Positions 10,375 to 28,455 of a stretch of 50,787 nt of DNA are shown here, piece after piece. Source of the stretch: Gracilibacter sp. BRH_c7a (lineage in GTDB: Bacteria; Bacillota; Desulfitobacteriia; Desulfitobacteriales; Syntrophobotulaceae); NCBI GenBank assembly GCA_001516055.1, contig LOEZ01000036.1:1-50787 (forward strand). The letters run 5' to 3'. Every line of letters starts with the position of its first letter. Position 1 is the first letter of the stretch. A program made the translations under genes and the position numbers. Below the pieces are notes generated by a model. The model did no database searches. It had not been told where the DNA came from and saw only the letters and a program-made list of their open reading frames with translations.

Positions 10375-10498
10375 GACCAAATCCTAATAATAGAATCACA
10401 TATTCGCTTATTATGTAAATTTAAAGAAGGAAATTATTGACCCTTTGTCAAATAAATGAACAGATAATCGTAATATGATTTATAAGGAGAGGAAGTGT

Positions 10499-10792
10499 AT
10501 GACCATCCTTAACAATCACTCTCATCCAGTAAAAAAGAAAGATATTGTATATCAGTCTATGCCTCCTGACACAATTCTGTTGAATTTGGATAACGGATTC
10601 TATTATAGTACGAACGAGATAGGTGCTGAAGTATGGGATTGCTGTGATGGCAGACACTCTATAATAGATATTATTAAACACATTAGCAACCAATACAATG
10701 TTTCTGCTGATGAGATTAAAAATGATGTTCTTAGTTTTATTGTTGATATGAAGAAAGAGGGGCTCCTGCAAATCCAAAATGATGAAGTTTAA
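10499..10792 (+). CDS. PqqD-like RiPP recognition protein (lasso B1-type)
   Basis: Small winged-helix protein of the PqqD family. In RiPP systems this domain, the RiPP recognition element, binds the leader peptide and presents it to the modifying enzymes; in lasso pathways it is called B1. The 97 residues show the family pattern: a strand pair around TILLNLDNGFYYSTNEIGAEVWD, then IIDIIKHISNQYNVS and a final helix DVLSFIVDMKKEGLLQ. The ATG at 10499 has AAGGAGAGGAAG just upstream; a longer frame to 10475 has none. First gene of a four-gene plus-strand operon. The likely ligand is the leader encoded at 13255-13371. Confidence 0.88.
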   Translation: MTILNNHSHPVKKKDIVYQSMPPDTILLNLDNGFYYSTNEIGAEVWDCCDGRHSIIDIIKHISNQYNVSADEIKNDVLSFIVDMKKEGLLQIQNDEV

Positions 10793-11200: not shown

Positions 11201-12196
11201 ATGTTAATAGCGTCCGATAACTTTATATCTTTTAAAATTGGTCACGTGAATATATCTTTTTCAGTAGATAATGATGATTTACGTATAGCCATTCAGCAAT
11301 GGTTAAAAGATTTTCAAATATCAATTCCAGAAAAACCTCAGAAGATGATTAAGGTTAGGCTACACCATTTTGAGCCTAATCAGCCGCTTCCATATAATAT
11401 ACCTAATCAAGCTAAGCTTACCGATCAAAATAATGATGCTAAATATTATACCTACCGTAATTTATGGATTGTTGAGTTTGCTCAAGCGGGAATTATGATT
11501 ATTAACCGGTCCACTCTCAATGTTCTAGGGTTAGTCTATAGTGAAATCCTACTTGAATCAGTATGGGATTTTGATATTTTCATGCATCCATTGTATGAAC
11601 TCATGCGTCAATTAGGTTTATATACTCAGCATTCCGGTGCCGTCAGCTATGACGGATTTGGCCTTCTTCTTGCCGGGAAATCGGGGCAAGGCAAATCGAC
11701 TCTCTCTGTTGATTTGCTTGAGAAAGGATTCTCGTTTTTGTCGGATGACCGCTGTTTTCTATTAGATGACAGCGGAAGCACTGAAGTAATTGGGATTTAC
11801 GAGCCAGCCAAAGTATTTGCCTTTAATATAAAACATATCTCAAAACTCAATAGTATTGAGGGTCTTTCTTCTGATATCCACACGAAGAATCACTTGGATC
11901 TTCGTATCTACTATCCAGAGAAAATCCAACTAAAAACTCCGTTGAACGGTATTATTTTCCCCAGCTGGTCGCCTAGCGAAAAAAGCCGGTTAGAGACTTT
12001 ATCACCTGGAAAAGCTCTTATTGAACTTCTTCCGCTGACTATGGTTTGTTTTGATACTGCTACGAGTAAAACCCATTTTGAATTTTTAGGAGAAGTAGTG
12101 AGTAAAACTCCTTTAAGCAGATTAATACTCGGATATGACAGGGAAAATTGGCATTCATTGGTCTTGGAATTCATTTCTCATTCGTGGAGGCAATAA
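11201..12196 (+). CDS. HPr-kinase-like RiPP-associated kinase
   Basis: P-loop kinase related to HPr kinase/phosphorylase, as found in paeninodin-type lasso clusters (PadeK), where it phosphorylates a serine near the peptide C-terminus. In 331 residues: an N-terminal domain of about 130 residues, H144 in QHSGAV, Walker A GKSGQGKST (159-167), and the SDD motif at 181-183. The ATG at 11201 lies two bases after the B2 stop with AGGAG seven bases upstream; the longer frame from 11111 overlaps B2 without a site. The peptide encoded at 13255-13371 ends in Arg-Ser-His and has three serines in its predicted core. Confidence 0.85.
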   Translation: MLIASDNFISFKIGHVNISFSVDNDDLRIAIQQWLKDFQISIPEKPQKMIKVRLHHFEPNQPLPYNIPNQAKLTDQNNDAKYYTYRNLWIVEFAQAGIMIINRSTLNVLGLVYSEILLESVWDFDIFMHPLYELMRQLGLYTQHSGAVSYDGFGLLLAGKSGQGKSTLSVDLLEKGFSFLSDDRCFLLDDSGSTEVIGIYEPAKVFAFNIKHISKLNSIEGLSSDIHTKNHLDLRIYYPEKIQLKTPLNGIIFPSWSPSEKSRLETLSPGKALIELLPLTMVCFDTATSKTHFEFLGEVVSKTPLSRLILGYDRENWHSLVLEFISHSWRQ

Positions 12197-12198
12197 AA

Positions 12199-13215
12199 TT
12201 GGATGAACTAAGCCAGGAACCGCTACTTGAATACATACGTAACAATTGTCATGCTGAATACTCTTCTTTTACCATTGAAATTACGAACACCATCCGTGAA
12301 GTAGGTGTTCGTAACATGTTCATTCAGCAAAAACTAAAGGACCTTATCCAAAAATTTGAAGGTGAAAAGATATCAGTCGTAATACTTAAAGGATCCCATC
12401 TTATTCATGATATATACCCCTTTGGTATAAGACCACTTGAGGATATTGACTTGTTGCTACAAAGGAAAGATTTTATTCTAGCCGATCAGATTATCCGTGA
12501 TATGGGCTATTCTGATTGTTCTGTTGGTTTAGATATCTGGACCCACCTGCAATTTTCTAATAAAATAACGTATACTAACCATACAATGCCTTTCATTCCT
12601 ATCGATATCCATTTCTCTCTAGGGCCATATCCTTACCTTGGTAGACTTAATGGAGAGATGTTGTTTGAGAGCTATACTGAAAAGTTAGCAACCCCATCTG
12701 GAGAGTACAATGTGCTCCAGACAGAGATTCTTCTGATTCACTTATGCCTTCATCTATTTCAACATCATAATGAAAATTGGCAAAAATCAGGCTGTGATAT
12801 TATTGCTGTTATTCTAGATAAACATGATTCTATTAACTGGGATCGGTTCAACCATATTGTGAAGGAAAATAAGCTCAATCTTCCAGTAGTCTATAGCCTT
12901 AACAAAGCATCGGAACTAGCTCCTAAAAAAATAATTCCAACCTCAGTATTAAATGAGATTGGAAATAAAAAACTTGGCGAATATGAACAAATAATTTTCA
13001 ATTTAAGCAAAAGACATCTAAACACTATGGAAAAACACCTTCTTCAGTTCATCACAACTCCCAGTTTTACCTCGAAGTTACAATGCTTACTAAGAATTAT
13101 ATTTCCAAGGAGATCATTTCTTAACCTTCATTTTTCTGGCAGTTATGTAAAATATTTTTTTTCTATACTAAAAACTTTTATTTATTTTCTGAAAACAGTG
13201 TTCTCCCAACAATGA
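12199..13215 (+). CDS. Nucleotidyltransferase family protein (NTP_transf_5-like)
   Basis: Nucleotidyltransferase-fold protein of the kind found with B1/B2/kinase RiPP clusters. Motifs: KGS at 64-66, R78 in GIRPLEDIDLLL, and the metal-binding D82-x-D84. 338 residues from a TTG at 12199, chosen because GGAGG (12186-12190) is eight bases upstream and the codon follows the kinase stop by two bases. The longest frame (TTG at 12148) overlaps the kinase with no site. It may add a nucleotide to the phosphorylated or free peptide, or act on another small molecule. It ends 39 bases from the convergent precursor gene. Confidence 0.8.
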   Translation: MDELSQEPLLEYIRNNCHAEYSSFTIEITNTIREVGVRNMFIQQKLKDLIQKFEGEKISVVILKGSHLIHDIYPFGIRPLEDIDLLLQRKDFILADQIIRDMGYSDCSVGLDIWTHLQFSNKITYTNHTMPFIPIDIHFSLGPYPYLGRLNGEMLFESYTEKLATPSGEYNVLQTEILLIHLCLHLFQHHNENWQKSGCDIIAVILDKHDSINWDRFNHIVKENKLNLPVVYSLNKASELAPKKIIPTSVLNEIGNKKLGEYEQIIFNLSKRHLNTMEKHLLQFITTPSFTSKLQCLLRIIFPRRSFLNLHFSGSYVKYFFSILKTFIYFLKTVFSQQ

Positions 13216-13254: not shown

Positions 13255-13371
13255 TCAGTGGCTTCTGCCGCCTCCTCCGCCGCCGCCAGTACTACTTAAC
13301 GTAATTTCTTTCAATTGTACATGCTTGGTTAATACAGGCTTCTCATAACCCTGTGTTTTTTTATTATCCAT
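13255..13371 (-). CDS. Glycine-rich RiPP precursor with lasso-type leader
   Basis: A 38-residue peptide, too short for most gene finders. The ATG is preceded by a near-perfect AGGAGG about six bases upstream. The leader has Y9-x-x-P12-x-L14 and T24, the exact spacing of the lasso leader consensus YxxPxLxxxGxxxxxT (the Gly position is V18). Cutting one residue after T24 leaves SSTGGGGGGGRSH: seven glycines, no Asp or Glu, hence no acceptor for a lasso isopeptide ring. The leader should be bound by the PqqD-like protein and cut by B2. It lies 61 bases downstream of the ABC exporter gene. It could be a degenerate relic, but the strong ribosome site and intact leader argue against that. Confidence 0.82.
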   Translation of the reverse strand: MDNKKTQGYEKPVLTKHVQLKEITLSSTGGGGGGGRSH

Positions 13372-13396
13372 ATTATCCCTCCTGACTTTTTATTAA

Positions 13397-13425
13397 ATAA
13401 TAACAAATATAGGCAAAATATACAA
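13397..13425 (-). promoter_or_regulatory. Possible dedicated promoter of the precursor peptide gene
   Basis: TTGTAT (13425-13420), a 17-base spacer and TATTAT (13402-13397) on the minus strand lie wholly inside the 61-base gap after the ABC exporter stop. The -10 ends 25 bases before the precursor ATG, giving a very short leader. A separate promoter would allow high precursor levels relative to the exporter. Confidence 0.4.
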
Positions 13426-13432
13426 CTATTTG

Positions 13433-15139
13433 CTACTTTTTGGAGCATCCTTTTACATGTTTTTCAATAATATATTCTTCATAACCATAAAATTGATTAA
13501 CAATTGCTTCATCGATATATAATACTTTGTTTGATAATTTAATACTCTCGATGCTGTGGGTTATAATCAACACAATTCTATCCTTAGCAAGTAATTTTAC
13601 CGACTTAAGTATTTGTTCTTCACTATCTCTATCAAGAGAAGTTGTTGCTTCATCCAATATTAATACATAGGGATTTTCCAGTAGTGCCCTGGCAATAGAT
13701 ATTCTTTTCTTCTGTCCAGCAGATAGCCTTATACCATCTTCACCGACAATCGTATCATAACCGTCTTCTAACTTTGCGATATATGAATCGACATTGGCAA
13801 ATTCACAAGCGATCCTCAATTGCTCCTCACTTACATCTTTTCTTCCCATCACAATATTGTCCTTGATAGAAGCATTAAATAAATAATCTGCCTGAGGAAC
13901 TATTGCAATACTTTTTCTAAGAGACTTCAGTTTGATTCTCTTTATATCTATCCCTTTAATATTAATCATACCTTCAGTCGGATCATAAAATCGCATAATC
14001 AGATTGGCCAGTGTTGTTTTCCCTTGTCCGCTCTTACCTACAATACCGACTATATCTCCTTGATCAAGTTTAAAATTCACTCCTTTTAACACAGGTTCTC
14101 TCTGGGGATATGAGAAAGACACATTCTCGAACTCAATGCTGGCCTTTATTAGATCTATATCTACCGCATCAGGTCTGTCTTGAATAATAAGGGACAGATC
14201 CATTACTTCAAATATCCTCTCTGCGGCCGGCAGTGACTTGTGAAACCCAACAACTATATCATAGGCACTGAAAAATAAGCTTACAATGTAATTAAGGTAA
14301 AACGATATGGCAATCAAAGTACCAATCGTCATTTCCCCTTTTATTACCGCTATACCACCTATACCCCAAATTATTAACAATCCTAAAATGTTAATAATCG
14401 TGGTTGATGATGATGCTACGGCATATTTCATACTTAGTTTTCTCTTCGCATCTTCTGTTGCCTGCATCGCGATATATGTTTGCTCTGTTCGTGGTTCAAA
14501 TACGGAGAAGGATTGGATTGCTTTAACCATCAGTAAATCTTCCTGTAGCCTCTCCATCAAGCCTTCTTTTTTTTCTTGCACTATTTTACTTAACATAAAA
14601 ATCTTATTTTTAAAAAGCAAATATAAGCCATAGAAAATAGGCAAGAAAACACAAGCCGCTACAATCATTTTCCAATTAATATAAATAACTATAAAAAAAA
14701 TGAATACTCCTACAAGGACGTTTTGAACAAAGTAAACGAATCGGTCGAGCAACAAGTTCTGCACAGCATCAACATCAGACGTAATTCGAGAGAGCATTCT
14801 GCCTCTGTGATTTTCCGAATAGAAGCTTTGGGGCAATTTTAACAGGTGCTTATATAAATCTATTCTAAGCTTTGTAAAAACACCTTTACGTATTTTTAAA
14901 GTAATGGATGTTTGAAGTAAATACAGCAATTCTTGTATTATCCTGGCTAATGCAAGAACAACCAGCATCTTGATCAAATAAGCTGTATTGCCTGTCATAA
15001 TTCCATTATCCACAATTTCTTTATAGAAAAAGGGGTTGATTACAGTAATAAGAGTTAAAAACAGCAAAGATAGAGATATTTTTAGGCCATCTTTATAATA
15101 CGGCCTCAATAAGCTGCGAAATCTTTTAATAATAAACAT
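13433..15139 (-). CDS. ABC exporter, fused permease-ATPase
   Basis: Type I ABC exporter half-transporter: six membrane helices in the first 310 residues, then an ATPase domain with Walker A GKSGQGKTT (about residue 370), signature LSAGQKKR, Walker B VLILDEATTSLD and switch ITHS. 568 residues from the ATG at 15139, chosen because AAGGGG lies eight bases upstream; an in-frame GTG at 15196 lacks a site. There is no N-terminal C39 peptidase domain, which fits leader removal by the separate B2 protein. With the precursor gene immediately downstream it is the likely peptide exporter (the D function of lasso clusters). Confidence 0.9.
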   Translation of the reverse strand: MFIIKRFRSLLRPYYKDGLKISLSLLFLTLITVINPFFYKEIVDNGIMTGNTAYLIKMLVVLALARIIQELLYLLQTSITLKIRKGVFTKLRIDLYKHLLKLPQSFYSENHRGRMLSRITSDVDAVQNLLLDRFVYFVQNVLVGVFIFFIVIYINWKMIVAACVFLPIFYGLYLLFKNKIFMLSKIVQEKKEGLMERLQEDLLMVKAIQSFSVFEPRTEQTYIAMQATEDAKRKLSMKYAVASSSTTIINILGLLIIWGIGGIAVIKGEMTIGTLIAISFYLNYIVSLFFSAYDIVVGFHKSLPAAERIFEVMDLSLIIQDRPDAVDIDLIKASIEFENVSFSYPQREPVLKGVNFKLDQGDIVGIVGKSGQGKTTLANLIMRFYDPTEGMINIKGIDIKRIKLKSLRKSIAIVPQADYLFNASIKDNIVMGRKDVSEEQLRIACEFANVDSYIAKLEDGYDTIVGEDGIRLSAGQKKRISIARALLENPYVLILDEATTSLDRDSEEQILKSVKLLAKDRIVLIITHSIESIKLSNKVLYIDEAIVNQFYGYEEYIIEKHVKGCSKK

Positions 15140-15235
15140 GAATCTTCCCCTTATCTTTTTACCAAGAAACCACACTATCACGGGTTTTCCCAGCACCTGA
15201 AAATGAAGCGGGTAAACCGTGCTATCTACTTTACG

Positions 15236-16402
15236 TTAGCGCCTTAATAAAAACTTCCACATTCTCTTATCAAATAGATAACGTAGACAAGCCGTAATAA
15301 AGCCCACTATGGGCATGGGATCGTCTTTCGATATTATGTCATCTCTTATGCCATCACTTTTGCCACTCCAAAAAGGAGGGTTCATATTCTTTCTGTCATT
15401 GTTAAATATATAATGGAGAATATCTCCGGGAAGAAGATTACGACACATGATTCCTGTTTGATACTGTTTGACAGGTTCAACATCACCATCTACAGCAATT
15501 TTATATAACAACCACGGAAAATCAACGCCCGCATTAATTCCCATCTGCAGCGAATTCCAAAATTTACAATTCAATTCGAGAAACTTAATTTCCCCCGTTT
15601 CTTTTTGAACCATAAACTCAAGGTCAGCTATCCCAAACCAATTTAGCCCTTTCATATATTCTATTGCCATCTCCAACATCTCCGGGTAAATTACACTTTC
15701 CTGAACTGTACTAGGCCCAGTCACTAAGGGATATTTCCTGACATGTTTTTGAATAAATGAAGCTCTTAATTCGCTTCTAGAATTATATAAAAGTACAACA
15801 TCATATACATCTCCTTCTCCCAGATGTTCTTGAATAATAGGATAAGGATATTGTTCATGTACCTCTTGATATATCTTTAAAATATCTTGTTTATTATATG
15901 CAGTTTGGATTCCCCGTCCACCGTTGCTTTTAACTGGCTTTACCATTAGTGGGTAAGTTAAATGTTCAGTTATTTTCTGTATATCATCTAATTCTTCTGG
16001 AAAAACAGTTTTGGGAATATTCACACCTACTGACATAGCATGCTTGTAAGCTTTTCCCTTATCCGAGGTAATTATATAGCTATCATATTCAGGAAGGGGT
16101 ATTAAACATATTTTTTCTAGTTCTTCCTTATGCTCCATTGCAACGGCTACTGTATCCTCATCCATCGGAAAGAAAACATCAATCCCATATTCTTTGATCT
16201 TGTCACTTACATATCTATAAAAATGTTCAGGGTCTTGGGACGCACTCGAACATACTAAAGAACCCGTACAATATTTGGAGAATGCAGCAGGTGAAAATCT
16301 GGTTTCCTCAACAACATAGGTTTCTATTCCTTTTGCACCCAAAGACCTAACAGTCGCCAGAGCTTTTCGAAGTTGGGCATTCGTTATTAATACTTTCGTT
16401 AT
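15236..16402 (-). CDS. ATP-grasp domain protein, apparent ATA start
   Basis: Second ATP-grasp ligase-like protein of the island, paralogous to 7634-8824. ATP-binding MVKPVKSNGGRGI is normal, but the C-terminal metal motif reads ELNCKFWNS where the paralogue has EINPRFWGS. Homology continues upstream of the first ordinary start (TTG at 16342) through VLITNAQLRKALATVRSLG, matching the paralogue's N-terminus. The only sensible start for this is ATA at 16402 behind AGAGGGGGAG, so I use it: 388 residues. A TTG start at 16342 gives 368 residues and truncates the first strand. It lies 18 bases after the GT-C-like gene and 96 before the ABC exporter; membership in the RiPP system or the polymer pathway is open. 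Confidence 0.8.
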   Translation of the reverse strand: MTKVLITNAQLRKALATVRSLGAKGIETYVVEETRFSPAAFSKYCTGSLVCSSASQDPEHFYRYVSDKIKEYGIDVFFPMDEDTVAVAMEHKEELEKICLIPLPEYDSYIITSDKGKAYKHAMSVGVNIPKTVFPEELDDIQKITEHLTYPLMVKPVKSNGGRGIQTAYNKQDILKIYQEVHEQYPYPIIQEHLGEGDVYDVVLLYNSRSELRASFIQKHVRKYPLVTGPSTVQESVIYPEMLEMAIEYMKGLNWFGIADLEFMVQKETGEIKFLELNCKFWNSLQMGINAGVDFPWLLYKIAVDGDVEPVKQYQTGIMCRNLLPGDILHYIFNNDRKNMNPPFWSGKSDGIRDDIISKDDPMPIVGFITACLRYLFDKRMWKFLLRR

Positions 16403-16420
16403 ACTCTCCCCCTCTGAGCC

Positions 16421-18370
16421 CTAATTATCTCGTATGTTCCATACCTTATCAAACTCTCTTTTCTTAGGTTGATTGATGTGATAAACCTTGATTTCTTCAT
16501 CTTCATAAAACACTTCAATGTTGTTATGCAGGCTGCTATAATCGTCCACCCACTGTTCCATTAGCAAATAGTACTCTTTGCGTTTATCTACTATTGGTTT
16601 TACGATTTCTAAGGGTGGTTCAAATACGACTTTTTCAATAAGGATAAATATATCTTCTGATTCAAGGACTTGGTTTGGATTATCTTTTCTAACAATTTTC
16701 TCAGCTTTAGGGATGTAATCATCAACTAACTCCCATAAATGCATGTGCCAGCCTTTACCTAGGCTAAGTGCATAGCCTTCCTCATTGGAAACCATCGTCC
16801 AGGTGGTAGGGCTGAACTCTGTAGCGATTCTTAAGTATTGGTTAACCATTGAATCATGCACCATTTTGTAGGGTGCGGAAGGCATCGGCTGATAGTAATA
16901 GGTAACTCCAATAAGAAGTGCTAAACAGAGGAATACCTCCAACGGCTTTATTCTGATGAAAATTGTAATAAACCCATGCCAACCAATTCCTAGCGCGAGA
17001 CAGGCAACTACTGACCATAAAAGGCCTATCCTGCCGATTAATAAAGTATTACCTGTTAACCACCCTAGATATATATATGACAGGAACGATATGATGGAAA
17101 TAAGTATTGCAAATAATAAAGGTTCCGGCCTCTGTTTCATCCATCTGGACAGGATTAACAATAAGGTCATTAATACTATTCCTACAGCAGCAGCATAATC
17201 CAAATATGTAAGCTTCTGAATATTTGATGCCATAACACTTGTTAGATAATTCAAAGATGAGGAGTGGTATCCTTTTCCCATCAATAAACCTATTATTAAA
17301 GGTATTCCTGATATCACTCCTGAGGTTATACTAGCAAGCGCAACACTCAGAATTGCTCTAAAGTTTTTTAGCGGACCAAAAATGAAATAGGATAATGCTA
17401 TTAAGACAACACCAAAACAAGCGAAAGCCCAGACCAAAGAATGAACAAGTCCCATCACTGCCAAGGCTATTCCTGTTGTCCAGAGGTAATACTTTTCCCT
17501 GGTATTAAAATAACGAATAGTAAAATGCCAGGCAAGAAAGACAAAAATTAAAGCGAACTCTTGGGAATTCGTTGCTGCCTGTCTCTCCCAGCCAAGGTAT
17601 AAGAAGGGTCCTAGAACTCCAAACACAAAAGCTGAAATAATTCCCGCGCTTTTCCTTCTGGTCAGCTGTTGAACGAAGAAGTAAAGTGCTATGGTGGTTA
17701 GCACACCGTTCAAGGGACCAATATATTTTACAACATAGATTGCATCTATGCCCGCAAACTTACGCAAGGTAGCATCATATATATGTAACCCCTGAGGGTA
17801 TATCCCGTCATGAAAAAGTATTCTCTCTGAAATATATTTCATCCAAGCGATAGCTACAGATGCGTCAGATAGTCCAGGTGCTGCATGCGATATCGGGTCA
17901 TAAAAACGCAAATAAGCAGCCCCAGAGATAACTGCAAATAATAGATAATTTGACGGAGATTTAAGAACCGCCAAAATAATTTTCCAACAAGTTTTTAATT
18001 TGTTCTTAACTATATTATTAGCCCAATTCAAAGGCGAGAATTTACCATCCAAGGTTTCATAAAAAAGCATTGTTAGTTTAGAGTAATTCTCTTTAAGCGA
18101 TTGCACTCGGTTACCCGCCGGCATGCGCCAGAACATGGTGGATATCGTAATAAATACAAATAAAGTAATTACCTCGTAAAGCTTAATTAGCACAAAGACA
18201 TAACCAATTACGATGATCAGAAAAACCATCTTGATATATCTGGAAAAGAAACGTTCTCCTGCTTCTCCATGTTCTTTGAACATAATAGTTGCCATAATGA
18301 AGAATAGAATCGCAAAGGATATTCCCAATCGAATCAGACTTTCATACTGATTGTAGATAGCCAATTTCAA
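16421..18370 (-). CDS. GT-C-like polytopic membrane glycosyltransferase, copy 1
   Basis: Large membrane protein of 649 residues: two N-terminal helices, a basic linker (to about 130), a core of roughly ten to eleven helices, and an extracytoplasmic C-terminal domain of about 130 residues. The first core loop has YLRFYDPISHAAPGLSDAS, an acidic-residue loop typical of GT-C enzymes that use polyprenyl-phosphate sugars outside the membrane. The family is not recognised precisely; the glycosyltransferase role is inferred from topology. TTG start with AGGGG upstream. It is a tandem paralogue of 18409-20391: the two share the RFYDP loop, the WERQAAT/WGRQAAT motif and the P-x-YKM segment. Confidence 0.68.
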   Translation of the reverse strand: MKLAIYNQYESLIRLGISFAILFFIMATIMFKEHGEAGERFFSRYIKMVFLIIVIGYVFVLIKLYEVITLFVFITISTMFWRMPAGNRVQSLKENYSKLTMLFYETLDGKFSPLNWANNIVKNKLKTCWKIILAVLKSPSNYLLFAVISGAAYLRFYDPISHAAPGLSDASVAIAWMKYISERILFHDGIYPQGLHIYDATLRKFAGIDAIYVVKYIGPLNGVLTTIALYFFVQQLTRRKSAGIISAFVFGVLGPFLYLGWERQAATNSQEFALIFVFLAWHFTIRYFNTREKYYLWTTGIALAVMGLVHSLVWAFACFGVVLIALSYFIFGPLKNFRAILSVALASITSGVISGIPLIIGLLMGKGYHSSSLNYLTSVMASNIQKLTYLDYAAAVGIVLMTLLLILSRWMKQRPEPLLFAILISIISFLSYIYLGWLTGNTLLIGRIGLLWSVVACLALGIGWHGFITIFIRIKPLEVFLCLALLIGVTYYYQPMPSAPYKMVHDSMVNQYLRIATEFSPTTWTMVSNEEGYALSLGKGWHMHLWELVDDYIPKAEKIVRKDNPNQVLESEDIFILIEKVVFEPPLEIVKPIVDKRKEYYLLMEQWVDDYSSLHNNIEVFYEDEEIKVYHINQPKKREFDKVWNIRDN

Positions 18371-18408
18371 CCTCTTCCCCTTTTAATCATTTTCATTGTT
18401 TCAAAAAC

Positions 18409-20391
18409 TTATGCTTTTAAAATATCTTCTGCGTTCTGATGAATATGATAAATTGTAAGTTCATCATCTTCATAATATATTTCAATGTTATCATGATATC
18501 TTTTAAACGTATCAATCCATTCTGCTAAAAGGGCATAATTCTTAACACGATTTCTGATTTCCTGTTTCTTATTCTCAAAATTTAAATCAACGCCAGTCTC
18601 TTGACTAATTGGGTCAAATACTTCCTTTTCTAAAAATATAAAGATATCTTCATTTTCAATTATTTGCTTGGTCCCATCCTCATTCACTTTGCTTATTATC
18701 TTCGTCTCCGGACTATATTCCATAAAATCCCATAAATGAGTATGCCACGCAACATGTAGTGAAAGCCAATATCCCTCTTCATTGGATATAAGCGTCCACG
18801 TTGTTGCAATATTTTCATCACTAATTTTCAAGTACTGGTTAATCATGTTGTCACTTATCATTTTATAAGGGACAGCAGGTACAGGAGGGTAAGTCATTAT
18901 TGCACCCACTAATAAGGCTACACAAAGCACGATTTCTATTTTTGGTCTAATTATGATACTTAAGATTCGTATAACGGCGTGGTAACCGAATCCGATTGCT
19001 AGACAGATAACAATGGCCCATAGAATACCACTCCTGCTGATAATAACCCCGTATCCTGTCCACGAGCCAAGATAAATATATATTACAAAAGAAAGGATAG
19101 AAAGAAGAATAATAAAAACTGTAGGCTCATTGCGTTCTTTCTTAAAAAGATTAAATACCAACAATAGCACCATTGCAGCAATTCCGAGAAGAACAGCTTC
19201 ATCTACATTCGTAAGGGCTGGAATCTCCGCTACGGCAGTTGATGTTAGGAATTCAGTGGTCGTACTATGAAATTCTTTACCTATAAGCAGTCCATATAGC
19301 ATTGGGATAACTGAAATAACCCCAGAGGCTATCCCTGCTATCATCAAATGAACATTGGCTTTCAGGTTTTTACGCGGACCAAATAAGAAATAGGTAAAAA
19401 TTATTAAGACAACGCCTAGGACCATCAAGGCATAAATAAATGAATGGCTTAGTCCGATTGTGGCAAAAGCAGCAGCTGCTGTCCAAAGGAACCTTTCTTC
19501 TTTAGATTCAAGATAGCGAATCGTGAAATACCAAGTTGGCGCAAGAAAGGCCAAGGCAAATTCCTGGGGAAGGGTAGCTGCCTGCCGCCCCCATTCCATT
19601 GGCAATAATGCCCCAAGCAGCCCATAGATAAATGCACCTACGATTCCCGCCGTCTTTCTCCCAGTTAATTTATAAAGAAACAAATAAATTCCCAATGAAG
19701 CTAAGACTCCATTCAGAGCTCCTGAATACTTAAAGATATAGAGGATATCATCTCCGGCAAACTTCCACCAAGTGGCAATCAAGATATGGTTTCCAAGAGG
19801 GTAAATCCCATCATGGAAAAGAATACTCGTAGTAATGTATTTTACCCACGCAATATTATTCGGCGCATCTGAATATCCAGGTGAAGCAGAAGTAAGTGGG
19901 TCGTAGAAACGCAGATAGGCAGAACCGCAGAGAACTGCGAATAATATCAATGTATATGGATTTTTTATAAAATCTTTTAACCATATCCTAAATTTCACTA
20001 GAACTTCCCGTATTTTGGAGCGGGCCACATCCATTGACCATGTCTCGCCATCAAAAGCCTGGAAGAAATATGCTAATAATGGTAGTTCATCCTTAGCCAG
20101 ATCCTTCTCCTGATTTATGACCTTGGCTTGCTTTGCTTTTTTTTCTCTATAACGGTTTAAAACAATAAGAGCAATTAGAACTAAGAAAATAGAGAAAGAT
20201 TCAAAAAGTTTGATGGCGGCTAGGATATATCCCATAACAATAATTAAAAAAACTATCTTGATATACCGCGAAAAAAAACCTTCTACCCCTCCGCCTTTCT
20301 CCCTGAAGATTATAACTGGCAATAGTAAAAATAGAATGGAAAAAGAAACTGCCAATCTTAGGATGTTTTCAGCTTGGTCAATTATCGGCAC
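18409..20391 (-). CDS. GT-C-like polytopic membrane glycosyltransferase, copy 2
   Basis: 660-residue paralogue of the adjacent downstream gene, with the same order: two N-terminal helices, linker, about eleven core helices and a C-terminal soluble domain. YLRFYDPLTSASPGYSDAP is the acidic loop after the first core helix. Conserved features shared with its neighbour include HDGIYPLGNH, the WGRQAATLPQEFALAF segment and VPYKMISDNMINQYLKI. It may glycosylate a protein or extend a lipid-linked chain outside the membrane; no exact family is claimed. GTG start, AAAGGAG ten bases upstream. Placed between the PelG-like exporter and copy 1 in one minus-strand operon. Confidence 0.68.
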   Translation of the reverse strand: MPIIDQAENILRLAVSFSILFLLLPVIIFREKGGGVEGFFSRYIKIVFLIIVMGYILAAIKLFESFSIFLVLIALIVLNRYREKKAKQAKVINQEKDLAKDELPLLAYFFQAFDGETWSMDVARSKIREVLVKFRIWLKDFIKNPYTLILFAVLCGSAYLRFYDPLTSASPGYSDAPNNIAWVKYITTSILFHDGIYPLGNHILIATWWKFAGDDILYIFKYSGALNGVLASLGIYLFLYKLTGRKTAGIVGAFIYGLLGALLPMEWGRQAATLPQEFALAFLAPTWYFTIRYLESKEERFLWTAAAAFATIGLSHSFIYALMVLGVVLIIFTYFLFGPRKNLKANVHLMIAGIASGVISVIPMLYGLLIGKEFHSTTTEFLTSTAVAEIPALTNVDEAVLLGIAAMVLLLVFNLFKKERNEPTVFIILLSILSFVIYIYLGSWTGYGVIISRSGILWAIVICLAIGFGYHAVIRILSIIIRPKIEIVLCVALLVGAIMTYPPVPAVPYKMISDNMINQYLKISDENIATTWTLISNEEGYWLSLHVAWHTHLWDFMEYSPETKIISKVNEDGTKQIIENEDIFIFLEKEVFDPISQETGVDLNFENKKQEIRNRVKNYALLAEWIDTFKRYHDNIEIYYEDDELTIYHIHQNAEDILKA

Positions 20392-20417
20392 TATAATCCA
20401 CTCCTTTATCTTTCATC

Positions 20418-22025
20418 CTACTGAGCGTTATATAAGTAATAATCAAGGTTAGAGAACACTTCTGATACTCTTTTAAAACTTAAAACAGCAAATACAATCG
20501 AACCTATTACCAAGCCGATAACAGCCCAATAATAATCAACCCATCGGCTAAGTACGAATCCAAGAATTGCATTTACTGCGGTAGCGACCATAATAGAATG
20601 TCCCGCCATTTGAGGCTGGGAAAAACTGAAAAGAATAAGACAATTTAAAAGCCCCAGTGAAATTATTGAGTATGAAAGGATTGCTAATATAAGAACAACA
20701 AGGGTTACTCTATTTCCTAATATTTCTAAATGAATAATATTATGATAATCAATATAACGAATAAATAGGAAAAGAATAATTCCATTTAGAATACCGAAAA
20801 GGCTTACAAAAATTGTCCACTTTCTGTGAAATTTCTTATAGATATTATTCATGGTAGGTATTTCATTCATTGAGAAATTCTTTTGGTCCACAAGTATCTT
20901 AATCATAATCTCGTTGACAATAACTTCAACAAAACCCATCGGTAAAATAAGGACCAGCAATGCAAAGTCCAGTCCAAGTTCATATTCTCCCCGGAACCAG
21001 ATGATATATGGCATGTAGGTTTCGTTAGTCGACCAAGCGATAATTCGGTCCAAATTCAAAAATAAAAAGTAAAAAAAGCCGTATTTAAAATATGGCATGG
21101 TGGAATAGAGCATTAATGAACGTCTCGGTAAAGAGGGAGCAATCCCTTTCTCCATCATTTTCTCTGTCTGATAGAAATAGTACCTGGAAATAAAAAAACC
21201 AGCTACAGATACAATACTAAGAGCAATGAGCTGAGAAATAATAATATCTATTTTTAATAAGATGAATAAGACAAAGACCAGTCCAATCCCTGCCGTTATG
21301 AGACCCGTAAAAACTATTTCTTTTCTTAACATGTACATGATAGTAACTGAGAGCCAAATAACCGTAAGGAAAAAGTAGTAAAGAATAATAATAGAGGCCA
21401 TTGACCAGGGAAATATCTTAAACAGCCAGTTAAATACATAGAAGCCAATCGTTACTGCAATAGCACAATAAAAACCTAAGCGAACAAAATAAAAGGCTGT
21501 CTTTCTTGCCATATATCCGAGATTCTGTCCGAGATACATAAACCCGCGTCTTGCTAAAGCCTGGGTGAATCCCCCCACAACCACAAAACTAAGGATTGTT
21601 CCAATAGATATACTAGTTGCCAAAGACACAGTAAGATTTTCATATGACCACAGGGAAAATCTTAGTGTCAACATAGAAATAACTGAAACTGCCATAGGTA
21701 GGGCAAAAATAGTTCCTCTGAGAAAACTTCTCATTGATTCCAGGAAATATTTTAATGTTGACATTTTTTCTGTCTTCACCATAGGAACTATATGTAATTC
21801 GTTTTTGATGAAATCCCAAAGTTCCTCGGCCAAAGAAAAAAGATCTTTATGCCCAAACCTGTCTCTTGCCATTTTGTCATTCCAGCCGATGGATTCTAAG
21901 GTAGCGGTAATTTCATATATATCATGGGGATTCTTCGTTCTTTCAAGAACTTGGGTACACAATTCCCTAAGTTCGGGCTTTTTGATAGATCTAGCACTTA
22001 GTTGCTGAATCGTCATGCTATTCAT
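20418..22025 (-). CDS. pelG: PelG-like exopolysaccharide exporter
   Basis: 535-residue polytopic protein resembling PelG, the inner-membrane exporter of Pel polysaccharide (MOP-related fold, about 12 helices). An unusual N-terminal soluble segment of roughly 95 residues (with YEITATLESIGWNDKMARDRFG) precedes the first helix, making it longer than Pseudomonas PelG (about 456). PelG-like segments include YFKYGFFYFLFLNLDRIIAWS and FRGEYELGLDFALLVLILP. Its start overlaps the DivIVA-like gene upstream by 8 bases. A PelF-like gene lies two genes upstream, supporting the assignment. Identification is by motif memory, without alignment. Confidence 0.72.
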   Translation of the reverse strand: MNSMTIQQLSARSIKKPELRELCTQVLERTKNPHDIYEITATLESIGWNDKMARDRFGHKDLFSLAEELWDFIKNELHIVPMVKTEKMSTLKYFLESMRSFLRGTIFALPMAVSVISMLTLRFSLWSYENLTVSLATSISIGTILSFVVVGGFTQALARRGFMYLGQNLGYMARKTAFYFVRLGFYCAIAVTIGFYVFNWLFKIFPWSMASIIILYYFFLTVIWLSVTIMYMLRKEIVFTGLITAGIGLVFVLFILLKIDIIISQLIALSIVSVAGFFISRYYFYQTEKMMEKGIAPSLPRRSLMLYSTMPYFKYGFFYFLFLNLDRIIAWSTNETYMPYIIWFRGEYELGLDFALLVLILPMGFVEVIVNEIMIKILVDQKNFSMNEIPTMNNIYKKFHRKWTIFVSLFGILNGIILFLFIRYIDYHNIIHLEILGNRVTLVVLILAILSYSIISLGLLNCLILFSFSQPQMAGHSIMVATAVNAILGFVLSRWVDYYWAVIGLVIGSIVFAVLSFKRVSEVFSNLDYYLYNAQ

Positions 22026-23136
22026 CCATTCCCTGAACTACCATATTAATAATTAATTCTGAAAGTTTACTTTCTCTTTGCGCTGCCTCTATTACATCCG
22101 CAGTGATTTCTTCATGTTTACTAATAATGAGGCCCCCAGAATTATCAGTCAAATCTTCCCCTGCTAATTTGCCAATTACATATTTATATCGAACTAGATC
22201 TATCTTTTCTTTAAGGTCATGATCTAGAACAGTTTCCTTATTCTCAGTAACTGAATTGCCCTCAGATTTTTGCCAGGTTGCTGCTATTTCTTTTTCTACA
22301 GAAAAATCCAAATTATGAAGATCATTTATATCGTCTTGATATTTTTCCTGGGTAGTTTCTGTATCTTTCGTTACTATATCTTTCGTCACTTTATCTTCCG
22401 GTACTTTATCTTCCGGTACTTTATCTTCCGGTACTTTATCTTCCGGTACTCTAAACTTTTCTGAAATAGTATCTTCAGGTTCTGTCTTTCCCCAGAAAGA
22501 AGTAAGCTCAAAAATCGGAGCAGGTTTTTCTTCATTTTTTGTTTGTTTCTGTCTGGCAGGACTTTCTTTCTTCTTATCCCATTCATCAAATAAAGGTGTA
22601 CCATCAGCAGCGATAGGTTTGGTCATTAACCTGATACTACTCTCTTCATTATCGTTTCCGGTGGAATCTTTATCCGAACTATTGCTATTCTTTCCGGTTG
22701 CTGAATGGCCAGTAGTAACTAGACTGAAATTAGAACTTTTTATTATTTTGTTAACATGTTCTAGTTCTTTTTTAATATTATCCTTGGTTTCTTGAATGCT
22801 TTCTTCGATGTTATTAATATCCTCTTTGAGTTTTTCTCTAATTGAAAGCTCTTCACTGAAAATATTATAAAAGTCTTCATCTTGATATCTCTTCAAATAC
22901 TCATATATTGCTTCTATCCGTTCTAAAGAGAGTTCGAGTAATTCAAGTTCTTTTACATTTTCAGACTTTGATGTAAGTTCTTCGATATCTTTCTTAAGCA
23001 AGTCATTTTCTTCTTCAATGTTTCTTAATTCAGTAATAAGTTTATTATAATCTGCTTCATACTGATTACTTATCTGATCAATGTATCTATCTACCTCTTG
23101 CTTGTTATATCCAAAAAATCTACTCACCCTAGGCAT
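22018..23136 (-). CDS. DivIVA-like coiled-coil protein with VPEDK repeats
   Basis: 372-residue cytoplasmic protein. Its N-terminus (FFGYNKQEVDRYIDQISNQY) matches the DivIVA/GpsB membrane-targeting domain, followed by a coiled coil to about residue 135. Then comes a charged, low-complexity linker with four perfect VPEDK pentads and two degenerate ones, and an acidic helical C-terminal region. DivIVA proteins sense negative membrane curvature and recruit partners to poles or septa. It is joined to the previous gene by a TAATG overlap and overlaps the PelG-like gene by 8 bases, so it probably works with that exporter. Placement of the export machinery at the septum or pole is inferred. Confidence 0.75.
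   Translation of the reverse strand: MPRVSRFFGYNKQEVDRYIDQISNQYEADYNKLITELRNIEEENDLLKKDIEELTSKSENVKELELLELSLERIEAIYEYLKRYQDEDFYNIFSEELSIREKLKEDINNIEESIQETKDNIKKELEHVNKIIKSSNFSLVTTGHSATGKNSNSSDKDSTGNDNEESSIRLMTKPIAADGTPLFDEWDKKKESPARQKQTKNEEKPAPIFELTSFWGKTEPEDTISEKFRVPEDKVPEDKVPEDKVPEDKVTKDIVTKDTETTQEKYQDDINDLHNLDFSVEKEIAATWQKSEGNSVTENKETVLDHDLKEKIDLVRYKYVIGKLAGEDLTDNSGGLIISKHEEITADVIEAAQRESKLSELIINMVVQGMDE
22358..22447. repeat. 15-bp tandem repeat in the DivIVA-like gene
   Basis: Four exact copies of ACTTTATCTTCCGGT (22388-22447) are preceded by two degenerate copies (22358-22387). They are in frame and encode VPEDK on the minus strand. The unit is a whole number of codons, so copy-number change would lengthen or shorten the linker without a frameshift. 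Confidence 0.92.
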
Positions 23137-23561
23137 TATATCTCATCTCCTTCCTCCAATATTGATTTGAAACTGTCTCTCACCCTGAGAATGTCTGATT
23201 TAACCTTATTCGAATAACCTTTATATTTTGATAATTCCTCTTGTCTTAATTTAACTTGATTTTCTAATTCTGCAATAGAATGATCCGTTTTTCGTTTCGT
23301 GATTAACTGTTGTTCTAAAATCTCAAGATATTTTTCGTACAGCTTATCCTTTATTTGTTCCTGCAGCTCTACCCTGTCACCAAATTCCTGCTTCAATTTA
23401 TTATATTCGTTTCGCAATAATTGTCTTTGATGAGTTTGAGCAAAAATCTCTTTTTTTAGTTCTTGTATTTTATTGTCATACATTTGATTAATTGTATTAA
23501 TCTCCTGTTGAATACTCTCAGCATCATAGCCCCTTATTGAGCGTTTAAAATTTTTTGGCAT
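23136..23561 (-). CDS. Short DivIVA-like coiled-coil protein
   Basis: 141-residue protein, almost entirely coiled coil. The N-terminus FKRSIRGYDAESIQQEINTI has the form of a DivIVA/GpsB domain (hydrophobic loop, G-Y-D/N-x-x-x-I/V). The rest, to about residue 125, is rich in Glu, Lys and Gln heptads. It follows the PelF-like gene after 28 bases with GAGGGATG before its ATG, and its stop overlaps the start of the larger DivIVA-like gene (TAATG). The pair may form hetero-oligomers. It is not the housekeeping DivIVA, which normally sits beside ftsZ/ylm genes. Confidence 0.68.
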   Translation of the reverse strand: MPKNFKRSIRGYDAESIQQEINTINQMYDNKIQELKKEIFAQTHQRQLLRNEYNKLKQEFGDRVELQEQIKDKLYEKYLEILEQQLITKRKTDHSIAELENQVKLRQEELSKYKGYSNKVKSDILRVRDSFKSILEEGDEI

Positions 23562-23589
23562 TTGTCATCCCTCGCTTTACCCTTTTAAA

Positions 23590-25335
23590 TTAAGCAATCT
23601 GGTCTTCAGCTAACTGGGTAATGAGTTTGGCTTTTTCCAGCTGCAGATTAGCTGCATCATTCTTTCCAAGCTCAGCGTAGGCACGGGCAATATCTGCATA
23701 TAAAACCGGAACGATTGGGGAATTCGGGACAGTTTTAATAGCTTGTTTGAATTGTTCAATCGCATCGGTCCAGAATCCTAGTTCAAGAAGTGTATAACCT
23801 TTCTCGGCAAGCAGTCTCTGCTGTTTAAGAAGCATAGTTGTACTCTGAACAGTCCTGAAAGATAATTTACGATAAGCCTTCATATATAACTCAACTGCAT
23901 TCTCAATCGTAAAGTAATCAAGTGCCCTTCTATGGGCATCCTCTCCCAAAGTATGTCTGAGTTCCGGGTCTTTGAGCAGAGTAAGGAGGGATCGGGCATA
24001 CTCATCATGTCTTCTAGGAGTAACAATTAGTCCACAATCTCCCAAAGCTTCAGCAACTCCTCCAACGTCGGTAGCTACTATAGCCTTGCCTGCCATCATT
24101 GCTTCTACAACAGAATACGGGAATGCTTCCGTAATACTGGAAAGTGCAACAACATCCGCCTGCTTTAATGCACTAGGCACATCGTCTGTATGCCCAGCAA
24201 AAACAAACGAATTCTCATCAAGACCGAGCTGATCTCGCATAGCGAGGCACTCTTTATAATACTCAGGAACGTTAACTATGCCATAAACGAAAAATTGCAC
24301 GTCAGGAATACTTTCTTTTACTATTGCTGCTGCTTTGATGAGCGTAATAAGATCTTTGACCGGGTCAATGCGTGCTACAGTGACAACTGTTGGGCGAGGA
24401 TTCGCAGCGTTTTTTACTGCGGGAGTAAAAATACTATTATCCACACCATTGTAAATGACATTTATCTTAGAGGATGGCACCCCAAATATTCTTTCCCATC
24501 TAGTATTATAATTACAGACCGGAGAAACAGTATCAGCCAAATTATAGTTCATCACTACAATAGAATGAACAAGCCTAATCAAAAAGGTTTTCAGATACGG
24601 TGAAAAATCAGAACGGCTAACAGATAAATACTGTTCTCGCAAATAAACGCCGTGTTCAGTCAACAAGTAAGGGGTTCCATGCTCAAACTTTGATAAAACG
24701 CAAGGTATGCCGCAAAATGCTGCGGCTGCCGAGTGCGCAACATTTATCTTAGGAAGAGGTGCATTAAGTATAGTAAAAAATCTATACAACCAACCTAAAC
24801 TCTGAGTTAAATCGAAAATACTAGGAACTGCAAAACCATTTTTTTCATTGGCCGTTATGTTATAAATATACCCTTTATATTCCTCCCATATGATATTAGA
24901 CTTAAAGCTCAGAGTATAATCATATTGTTGAAAATATTTGTACATATTGTGCAATGCATAAGCAAAACGCATAGCGTTTTTGTCTAAAGTCAATATCTCT
25001 TCAATAAATACCCTAAATAAGGGTAAAAACTCTGACTCAATAACCCTATCAGTCGTGATTTTTTTCGTTAGGTAAATATCGGAAAAAGGTTTCTGCAAAT
25101 TTTCCGCGGCATCCTCTATTCCCCATAATGGAACTTTGATTAAATCCGTACTTGAGGGTAACGAAAATTTTTGTGTCACATAAGGATTCATCATTACACT
25201 GTAAAGAACAAAATCAATATTTCTTAGACGCTTCACTAAAACATCACACCATGTGCTTACACCACCATGGTGAAATGGATATGTTCCCTCTGTTGTTAAC
25301 ATAACCCTTAGATTTTCGTTCCCAAACATCGTCAT
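23590..25335 (-). CDS. pelF: PelF-like GT4 glycosyltransferase with TPR tail
   Basis: Cytoplasmic GT-B glycosyltransferase that in Pel systems polymerises the chain from UDP-sugars. The N-terminal VMLTTEGTYPFHHGGVSTWC is the characteristic PelF opening. The C-terminal Rossmann domain shows TVARIDPVKDLITLIKA and the GT4 E-x7-E region AFPYSVVEAMMAGKAIVATDVGG. After about residue 490 an extra TPR-like tail follows (GYTLLELGFWTDAIEQFKQA and LYADIARAYAELGK), making 581 residues against about 500 in ordinary PelF. The start could also be the second ATG, two codons in (25329), which has better GGAG spacing. Followed by the DivIVA-like pair and the PelG-like exporter. Confidence 0.87.
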   Translation of the reverse strand: MTMFGNENLRVMLTTEGTYPFHHGGVSTWCDVLVKRLRNIDFVLYSVMMNPYVTQKFSLPSSTDLIKVPLWGIEDAAENLQKPFSDIYLTKKITTDRVIESEFLPLFRVFIEEILTLDKNAMRFAYALHNMYKYFQQYDYTLSFKSNIIWEEYKGYIYNITANEKNGFAVPSIFDLTQSLGWLYRFFTILNAPLPKINVAHSAAAAFCGIPCVLSKFEHGTPYLLTEHGVYLREQYLSVSRSDFSPYLKTFLIRLVHSIVVMNYNLADTVSPVCNYNTRWERIFGVPSSKINVIYNGVDNSIFTPAVKNAANPRPTVVTVARIDPVKDLITLIKAAAIVKESIPDVQFFVYGIVNVPEYYKECLAMRDQLGLDENSFVFAGHTDDVPSALKQADVVALSSITEAFPYSVVEAMMAGKAIVATDVGGVAEALGDCGLIVTPRRHDEYARSLLTLLKDPELRHTLGEDAHRRALDYFTIENAVELYMKAYRKLSFRTVQSTTMLLKQQRLLAEKGYTLLELGFWTDAIEQFKQAIKTVPNSPIVPVLYADIARAYAELGKNDAANLQLEKAKLITQLAEDQIA

Positions 25336-25374
25336 CGCTCCAATATCTCCAATATCCTAAATGCTTTGGCAGAT

Positions 25375-26142
25375 TCATGGCTGTTTTGCATATCCATTAG
25401 TTGCATTATATAGTAAGAAGTTATTCTTTACCGCCTGCTCATGCGCTTTATGATAGCGCAGGCTTTGTATTTTAATATCTTCCAATAACAAAAACACGGT
25501 TAGCCCAGAATTCATCTGTAAAGTCGAAAGATTACCCAACAACTTTTTAACTAATTCATCCTCCGACTCTAACGGTGGATTCTCCCAACATACTCCATCA
25601 ATCAAGGAAAATGTGGACCTAATCACCTCAATTATACCACAATTTTGGATAAAGATATGATCAGGATAGATTGTTCGGATTTTTTGAATAATCTCTTTTG
25701 CATTTTTTATCTGTACTTCTCTTTTATTAATAGGAAGTTGTTTGTCTTCCAAAAAACCGATTGTATCAATAAATAGACCGTCATAACACCTATATTCAAG
25801 TAATTCTGATGCCTTATTCATCAGTAAGCCTTGCCATTTGGCTGATGTCAAGTCAGCACAGAAATTTCCATACTCCTGGTTAAATACCCTCTCTCCATCA
25901 ACAGACAAAAAATCATCTTTCTCTAAAAATTTAAGAACATCACTCCAAGGAGGAATTTCTAAGAAGCTTAGATAGGCAAGAACTAGGGTGCCTGATTTTT
26001 GAATTCGTTTAATCTCACTATCATGATATCCTGCAGGTTCAATGATTGCGATGTCATATCCATTTAATTCCCATTTAGAACTCTCACCATAATATACCAC
26101 AAAATTTTCTGCTTGTTTAAATCTTTCTCTTCGATTATCCAC
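25375..26142 (-). CDS. GH114-like glycosidase without signal peptide
   Basis: TIM-barrel protein resembling GH114 (endo-alpha-1,4-polygalactosaminidase) and the related hydrolase domain of PelA. Family features: YDIAIIEPAGY near the N-terminus, LVLAYLSFLEIPPW, and the acidic site YDGLFIDTIGF around residue 120. 255 residues. No signal peptide or membrane helix is visible; the N-terminus is charged (MDNRRERFKQAE), so it is predicted to be cytoplasmic, odd for a polymer hydrolase. GTG start with GAAGGG seven bases upstream. It precedes the PelF-like gene by 39 bases. It may act on internal or lipid-linked intermediates. Confidence 0.75.
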   Translation of the reverse strand: MDNRRERFKQAENFVVYYGESSKWELNGYDIAIIEPAGYHDSEIKRIQKSGTLVLAYLSFLEIPPWSDVLKFLEKDDFLSVDGERVFNQEYGNFCADLTSAKWQGLLMNKASELLEYRCYDGLFIDTIGFLEDKQLPINKREVQIKNAKEIIQKIRTIYPDHIFIQNCGIIEVIRSTFSLIDGVCWENPPLESEDELVKKLLGNLSTLQMNSGLTVFLLLEDIKIQSLRYHKAHEQAVKNNFLLYNATNGYAKQP

Positions 26143-26168
26143 ACTGATTTTCCCTTCAATTACAGAAA

Positions 26169-28037: not shown

Positions 28038-28089
28038 AAGCGCTTCCAAAACAATCCCACCCAATTTGTTATGCTGTAAGTATATTTAT

Positions 28090-28455
28090 TTAAGAAGATT
28101 CTTGATTAGTTTTATTCGAGGTTTCCCCCATACTTTTCATGATAGCAATGATTTGAGCCTGCTCTTTAATTTTGTCCTGTAAAATAGAAAGATGAATGGC
28201 TTGATAAAGCAAAAGCAGAAAGATAATTAAAGTAGATATCAAAAATAGTAACGTTGGTGGATATTCAACATTAACTAGCTTGGCAAACGTATCAATAGTA
28301 TAAGGAAAAGCAGATAAAATAATGACAAAAAAAGAACAAGCTATCCAAGGAAGTGATGTTCTTGCACTCATTTTACCATTAATCAAAAGTTTAAAGACTA
28401 AAATTCCAAAAATAATTCCTATCGCTAATAATATTATTCTAAGCATTAACATCAC
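28090..28455 (-). CDS. DUF2304 membrane protein, second copy
   Basis: 121-residue protein with three predicted helices (about 3-22, 34-52 and 66-90) and a short charged tail, like the protein at 4027-4407; both have a helix ending in a Trp-Ile core (LPWIACSFF here, ALLWISISI there). It overlaps the upstream GT2 gene by 17 bases, the same arrangement as the other pair. Expected to be the membrane partner of that glycosyltransferase. Confidence 0.78.
   Translation of the reverse strand: MMLMLRIILLAIGIIFGILVFKLLINGKMSARTSLPWIACSFFVIILSAFPYTIDTFAKLVNVEYPPTLLFLISTLIIFLLLLYQAIHLSILQDKIKEQAQIIAIMKSMGETSNKTNQESS

Follow-up and report, generated by a model that had tools for sequence, protein, structure and literature searches.

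The window, a stretch of 50,787 nucleotides of DNA from Gracilibacter sp. BRH_c7a, holds a 38-codon open reading frame in which a lasso-type leader precedes a glycine-rich core. This raises the question of what kind of peptide such a precursor yields. The answer we favour, and consider reasonably probable, is that it encodes a lasso-derived, cyclase-less RiPP, that is, a linear peptide with a lasso leader which would be phosphorylated and possibly further decorated.

The precursor gene and the enzymes beside it

The reading frame lies at 13255-13371 as originally predicted, and we add the strand, which had been left out: it is read on the minus strand, from 13371 to 13255, as MDNKKTQGYEKPVLTKHVQLKEITLSSTGGGGGGGRSH, and splits into leader and core as MDNKKTQGYEKPVLTKHVQLKEITL|SSTGGGGGGGRSH. 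A minus-strand run of genes ends with the precursor, on which a plus-strand operon, B1-B2-kinase-nucleotidyltransferase, converges. The features are as follows.

10499-10792, plus strand (the ORF opens at 10475): B1, a PqqD-like RiPP recognition element (RRE); PF05402, 69 bits
10779-11198, plus strand: B2, a transglutaminase-like leader peptidase with Cys76 and His111; NF033537, 41.2 bits (cut-off 33), and PF13471, 37.1 bits (cut-off 26)
11201-12196, plus strand: HprK-like peptide kinase; TIGR04355, 53 bits, below the cut-off of 200
12199-13215, plus strand: NTP_transf_5 nucleotidyltransferase, probable TTG start; PF14907, 96.5 bits
13255-13371, minus strand: precursor peptide gene, 38 codons plus stop, from the ORF reading and the Paenibacillus darwinianus ortholog
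13258-13296, minus strand: predicted core SSTGGGGGGGRSH, with a putative cleavage site and candidate phosphorylation sites S27 and T28
13267-13287, minus strand: seven-glycine run in mixed GGC/GGA codons
13297-13371, minus strand: leader MDNKKTQGYEKPVLTKHVQLKEITL, with Y9 at -17, P12 at -14, L14 at -12 and T24 at -2
13377-13383, minus strand: Shine-Dalgarno sequence AGGAGGG, 5 nt before the ATG
13433-15139, minus strand: MsbA-like ABC exporter, PF00664 and PF00005, directly upstream of the precursor
L044:5015-5185: precursor ortholog of P. darwinianus, pS 0.97 and pN 0.07 over 24 codons

Most of what had been said of the frame itself held. Counted from the predicted cut after L25, the four leader residues stand at the spacing reported for B1 recognition in lasso leaders (PMC10368454), and the ribosome-binding site described as a near-perfect AGGAGG is indeed AGGAGGG. 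The core has the seven glycines announced, along with three Ser and one Thr, and is devoid of Asp, Glu and Cys. The glycine codons read GGC GGC GGC GGA GGA GGC GGC, hence the run is not a pure microsatellite. When ORFs of 20-80 amino acids with the pattern Y..P.[LIVM].{8,10}T and a strong Shine-Dalgarno sequence were counted, dinucleotide shuffles of the window gave 0.01 per shuffled window, and the real window contains a single one. The leader is single-copy in the genome, with no second copy. The lasso leader model NF033521 (lasso_leader_L3) has a cut-off of 19, which the window leader, at 13.6 bits, misses and the P. darwinianus ortholog, at 23.7 bits, passes. The precursor strand showed neither a sigma-70-like promoter nor a terminator. 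At the level of sequence, two lasso features are present, namely a YxxPxL leader with Thr at -2 and a discrete B1 beside it, and a leader peptidase of the transglutaminase-like B2 type.

B1, B2 and the nucleotidyltransferase scored above the curated Pfam cut-offs. Against PDB structures, B1 matched PbaB1 (9x90, E 6e-9), LppB (9x8z, E 0.008) and also TbiB1 (5v1u). In its pocket, an Asn and an Asp occupy the places of LppB Asn33 and Asp70, which are the residues holding a Tyr-type leader (PMC13381572). The Asp70 equivalent was found in 13/13 Tyr-leader loci versus 1/11 Trp-leader loci, in a set of non-independent loci whose states were assigned by hand. Judged by these residues, the pocket of B1 is of a type that fits a Tyr leader. 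The catalytic Cys and His of B2 are invariant among its relatives; its structure model had no significant fold match, the weak ones being led by transglutaminase-like cysteine proteases. The kinase, whose start was set from an alignment with its P. darwinianus counterpart, carries H144, G159, G162, G164, K165, S166, D182 and D183 with exactly the spacing of the BsfK motif, shown to matter for BsfK (PMC10368454), and its AlphaFold model (pLDDT 85) adopts the PEPCK/HPr-kinase fold. The nucleotidyltransferase motifs LKGS...DID and IDIH are conserved. No C39 peptidase domain was recognised in the ABC exporter.

Conservation in Paenibacillus darwinianus

Searching species genomes for the kinase family led to locus L044, a syntenic cluster in P. 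darwinianus. Its precursor begins YEKPVLTKHARLKEVTLSSTGGGGDKRGGSG and reads in full MDKEQQVKGTPAYEKPVLTKHARLKEVTLSSTGGGGDKRGGSGKKDGKGGNDNGDN. Both clusters comprise the RRE/B1, the B2 peptidase, the HprK-like kinase, NTP_transf_5, the precursor and the MsbA-like exporter, in the same order: B1-B2-kinase-NTase forward, precursor-ABC reverse, the two convergent and the exporter in the same position. Identity between the two species was 49% for the kinase, 47% for the nucleotidyltransferase and 47% for B2. Conservation of the leader and glycine run beside B1/B2/kinase genes had been proposed as a check on the original prediction, and this is what we observed.

Over the 24 codons from Y9 to G32, the fourth glycine of the run, 14 codon changes were synonymous and 3 nonsynonymous (window versus P. 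darwinianus; pS and pN by Nei-Gojobori, Fisher p about 1e-12). Since nearly all synonymous sites had changed and few nonsynonymous ones had, the precursor peptide is under purifying selection. The conservation in P. darwinianus also confirms that the 38-codon ORF is a real, coding gene. A spurious ORF, which the small size might suggest, is hardly credible in view of this conservation and of the shuffling test.

The conserved unit consists of the leader and LSSTGGGG, beyond which the tail is free. As a consequence, the poly-glycine core that had been put forward stood only in part: the glycines at core positions 4-7 are kept, and instead of the remainder of the run P. darwinianus has DKRGG... 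There, core position 8 is an Asp instead of the Gly of the window, whose last three glycines are unconserved. Because of this Asp, we regard the run as partly lineage-specific, and poly-glycine itself is not the conserved trait. It is suggested that leader and core evolve separately, with the leader and SSTGGGG fixed and the tail free.

P. darwinianus provided the only close ortholog among about 1,200 genomes and one narrow-motif scan of 84,980 species genomes. No further one was found in the same order (searched by the nucleotidyltransferase), in a 398-genome sample of the phylum, in 295 genomes of the P. darwinianus family, in 398 genomes of its class, or in plasmids or viral contigs. The same-family kinase matches sit in paeninodin-type or LPP-type loci (see below), or in loci not resolved. 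Incidentally, a Cys/Gly-repeat ORF resembling, by eye, heterocycloanthracin/sonorensin precursors adjoins the P. darwinianus cluster (L044:1806-2276, minus strand).

No lasso cyclase was recognised in the window, and a possibility was that the cluster is a degenerate one, whose ancestor lost the cyclase and, in the window lineage, the Asp8 acceptor, the precursor being a still-expressed relic. The lasso-like character of the leader, B1, B2 and exporter speaks for this, as does the Asp8 kept in P. darwinianus (SSTGGGGD): it stands at the lasso acceptor position, so that recent ring loss, or a cyclase in trans, is conceivable. Yet, catalytic or binding motifs are kept in all four enzymes, purifying selection on the precursor is strong, and gene sets that combine a lasso leader with no recognised cyclase are found again in unrelated lineages. 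We consider such a decay unlikely.

Among the recurring sets, those of Syntrophomonas and of a Bacillota MAG combine B1, B2, kinase and nucleotidyltransferase with several short precursors, and no full-length Asn synthase was found genome-wide in these drafts. In Limnofasciculus baicalensis (L051:2950-5724), B1, a lasso-leader precursor, the kinase and the nucleotidyltransferase are present; the short contig showed no B2, and the 6.6 Mb draft genome no full-length Asn synthase. Neither did we find a lasso-type cyclase in any of these genomes, all of them drafts, for which such absences are provisional. No paper on cyclase-less B2 clusters was recognised in the literature searched; lasso clusters being defined by their cyclase, cyclase-less sets are easily missed. 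We also noticed that the Bacillota MAG and Syntrophomonas loci (L031/L047 and L030/L046, L045, L048) are polysaccharide-type loci with B1, B2, HprK and NTP_transf_5 and two to three very short lasso-leader ORFs of the form YxxPxxxxYxDLxxxTAG..., and that L030 and L031 carry, in addition, a cobalamin/radical-SAM-like gene and a DUF362-like gene, both named by eye. Another set, at a contig end, has B1, B2 and kinase (L037:398-2099) beside a precursor (L037:115-303, minus strand) that joins a Trp leader to a long tail, rich in Gly, Asn and His and ending in Cys-Ser, in a genome whose only full-length Asn synthase has the ordinary MCGIVG start.

Comparison with phosphorylated lasso peptides and their linear relatives

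The Bsf-type phosphorylated lasso peptides of Bradymonas (PMC10368454) share with the window B1, B2, kinase, nucleotidyltransferase and ABC exporter, the spacing of the kinase motif and a hydroxyl residue at core position 3. They differ in having a cyclase C and Gly as core residue 1, which is Ser in the window, and in their Asp8, absent in the window and present in P. darwinianus. In paeninodin and pseudomycoidin (reviewed in PMC9266682), a kinase likewise acts on the precursor, as does a nucleotidyltransferase in pseudomycoidin. These systems have a cyclase C, a phosphorylated C-terminal Ser and, in paeninodins, a Trp leader, whereas the window has a Tyr9 leader, a Tyr-type RRE with the Asn33/Asp70 pair and a C-terminal His. 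The paeninodin-type features, i.e., Trp leader, Trp-type RRE and C-terminal Ser, are all absent in the window.

The nearest known kind is that of the linear polyphosphorylated peptides (LPP; Popov et al. 2026, PMC13381572), made by an RRE, an HprK-like kinase, an NTP transferase and an MsbA-like exporter, with no cyclase. In LPP, a SipW-like peptidase (SpI) removes the leader and Ser3 is polyphosphorylated (PMC13381572). Very similar chemistry, on linear phosphorylated lasso relatives, was thus already published in 2026 and what we propose has a precedent. The likeness extends over the discrete RRE, kinase, NTP transferase, exporter and missing cyclase to the Tyr leader motif, the Ser at Tyr+18, the conserved N-terminal region with its variable tail, and the polysaccharide genes nearby. 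Set against the LPP consensus YxxPxVLxHQxIxFETxxS, the window matches at Y, P, H (+8), T (+15) and S (+18) and has Leu in place of I (+11); VL is offset by one, and Q and FE are mismatched.

Could the window then hold an SpI-less member of the LPP family proper, and not a separate lineage? The gene set is the same except for the peptidase, the Tyr leader, the His at Tyr+8, the Ser at Tyr+18 and the variable C-terminal tail are shared, and Gly/Asn-rich tails also occur in the LPP-type precursors at L117 and L119. However, both members, window and P. darwinianus, carry a lasso B2 where LPP have SpI, and the leader has no FET ahead of the cut. In the RRE tree, where LppB, PbaB1, TbiB1 and TfuB1 were entered as fragments, the B1 of the window and that of P. 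darwinianus paired with each other (100/99), and LppB grouped elsewhere, with two Paenibacillaceae RREs from LPP-type loci that likewise have Gly/Asn-rich tails; for these short domains, a common clade had a p-AU of 0.165, meaning that the separation is not significant. No SpI or SipW-like peptidase was found in the cluster, TIGR02228 matches lying only on other contigs of the genome. All things considered, membership in the LPP family proper seems quite improbable. We class the cluster neither with the lasso peptides, of which two defining features were not found (a cyclase and, in the window, the acceptor residue), nor with the LPP, whose peptidase was not found in it.

Two side observations concern LPP. 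The strongest SipW-like match in the window genome (L128, G000:C66:11331-11720) contains an in-frame TGA. LPP-like sets with kinase, LppB-clade RRE, ABC exporter, Gly/Asn-rich precursor and nucleotidyltransferase lie beside paeninodin-type lasso clusters at L117:10641-13825 and L119/L124, and no SpI was recognised in the stretches read there. Gly-rich cores recur among LPP-type loci.

Ring closure, proposed product and polysaccharide surroundings

A true lasso, or another macrocycle, might still arise if the closing enzyme were encoded at another locus, or if the ATP-grasp protein at 15236-16342, whose gene adjoins the exporter, closed the ring. The genome does contain one full-length Asn synthase, but it matches TIGR01536 with 522 bits and starts MCGIVG, with the N-terminal Cys of an ordinary AsnB. 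Both full-length Asn synthases of P. darwinianus also have this Cys (MCGF.. and MCGI..), as opposed to the lasso cyclases used for comparison, which start MSAIAG, MAGIAG or MGAILG. The full-length Asn synthases of both genomes therefore look like ordinary AsnB, and no lasso-type macrolactam cyclase was found genome-wide in either, an absence that is provisional for draft assemblies. These searches, which returned AsnB-type enzymes only, argue against a cyclase in trans. As for the ATP-grasp protein, none was seen among the ORFs adjoining the P. darwinianus cluster. Moreover, at core positions 7-9, where lasso peptides have their acceptor Asp or Glu, the window has Gly, and its core contains no Asp, Glu, Lys or Cys at all. 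A macrocycle is thus very unlikely.

We therefore return to the linear peptide. B1 would bind the leader through Y9xxPxL14, the HprK-like kinase would phosphorylate S27 and/or T28, and the NTP_transf_5 enzyme may decorate the phosphate with a nucleotide- or hexose-type group. B2 would then cleave after L25, as the Thr -2 rule suggests, and the ABC exporter, to go by its gene position, would release the modified linear SSTGGGGGGGRSH. Ring closure is not expected, given that searches for a macrolactam cyclase found none and that Asp and Glu are missing from the core. The end product is probably a linear modified peptide; the phosphorylation, decoration, cleavage and export steps are modelled on homologs. 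BsfK targets the hydroxyl at Tyr+19 (BsfA S3, PMC10368454) and LppK the Ser at Tyr+18 (LppA S3, PMC13381572). In the window, S27 is Tyr+18 and T28 is Tyr+19, which coincide with these proven sites and are retained in the P. darwinianus ortholog. This strengthened the earlier proposal that Ser and Thr serve as handles for the kinase and nucleotidyltransferase. In pseudomycoidin, the nucleotidyltransferase adds hexoses to phosphorylated Ser (PMC9266682), and deletion of LppN was without effect in a foreign host (PMC13381572). The 13-residue core would be a very simple substrate for studying the role of NTP_transf_5. B1, B2, kinase and nucleotidyltransferase are suggested to form a module working without ring closure.

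The minus-strand run that the precursor ends (13255-28455) is likely a Pel-type exopolysaccharide locus. It holds a PelF glycosyltransferase (23590-25335; NF038011, 144 bits, cut-off 100), a protein with an HD domain, and membrane proteins that match no Pfam family. A polysaccharide-related role for the peptide is only a possibility, because the P. darwinianus stretch examined showed no recognisable genes of this kind. One might go further and speculate, with considerable doubt, that the cluster represents a second, separately evolved route from lasso to linear phosphorylated RiPP, in which B2 was kept and only the cyclase dropped, and that the modified N-terminal Ser-Ser-Thr of this Gly-rich-tailed peptide may attach to, or act with, the polysaccharide of the PelF locus whose end it occupies. 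Other flanking genes encode an XrtA-type polysaccharide deacetylase, a second deacetylase and two ATP-grasp proteins. Finally, the long run with PelF also includes a possibly PelG-like protein (20418-22025), which has no family match.
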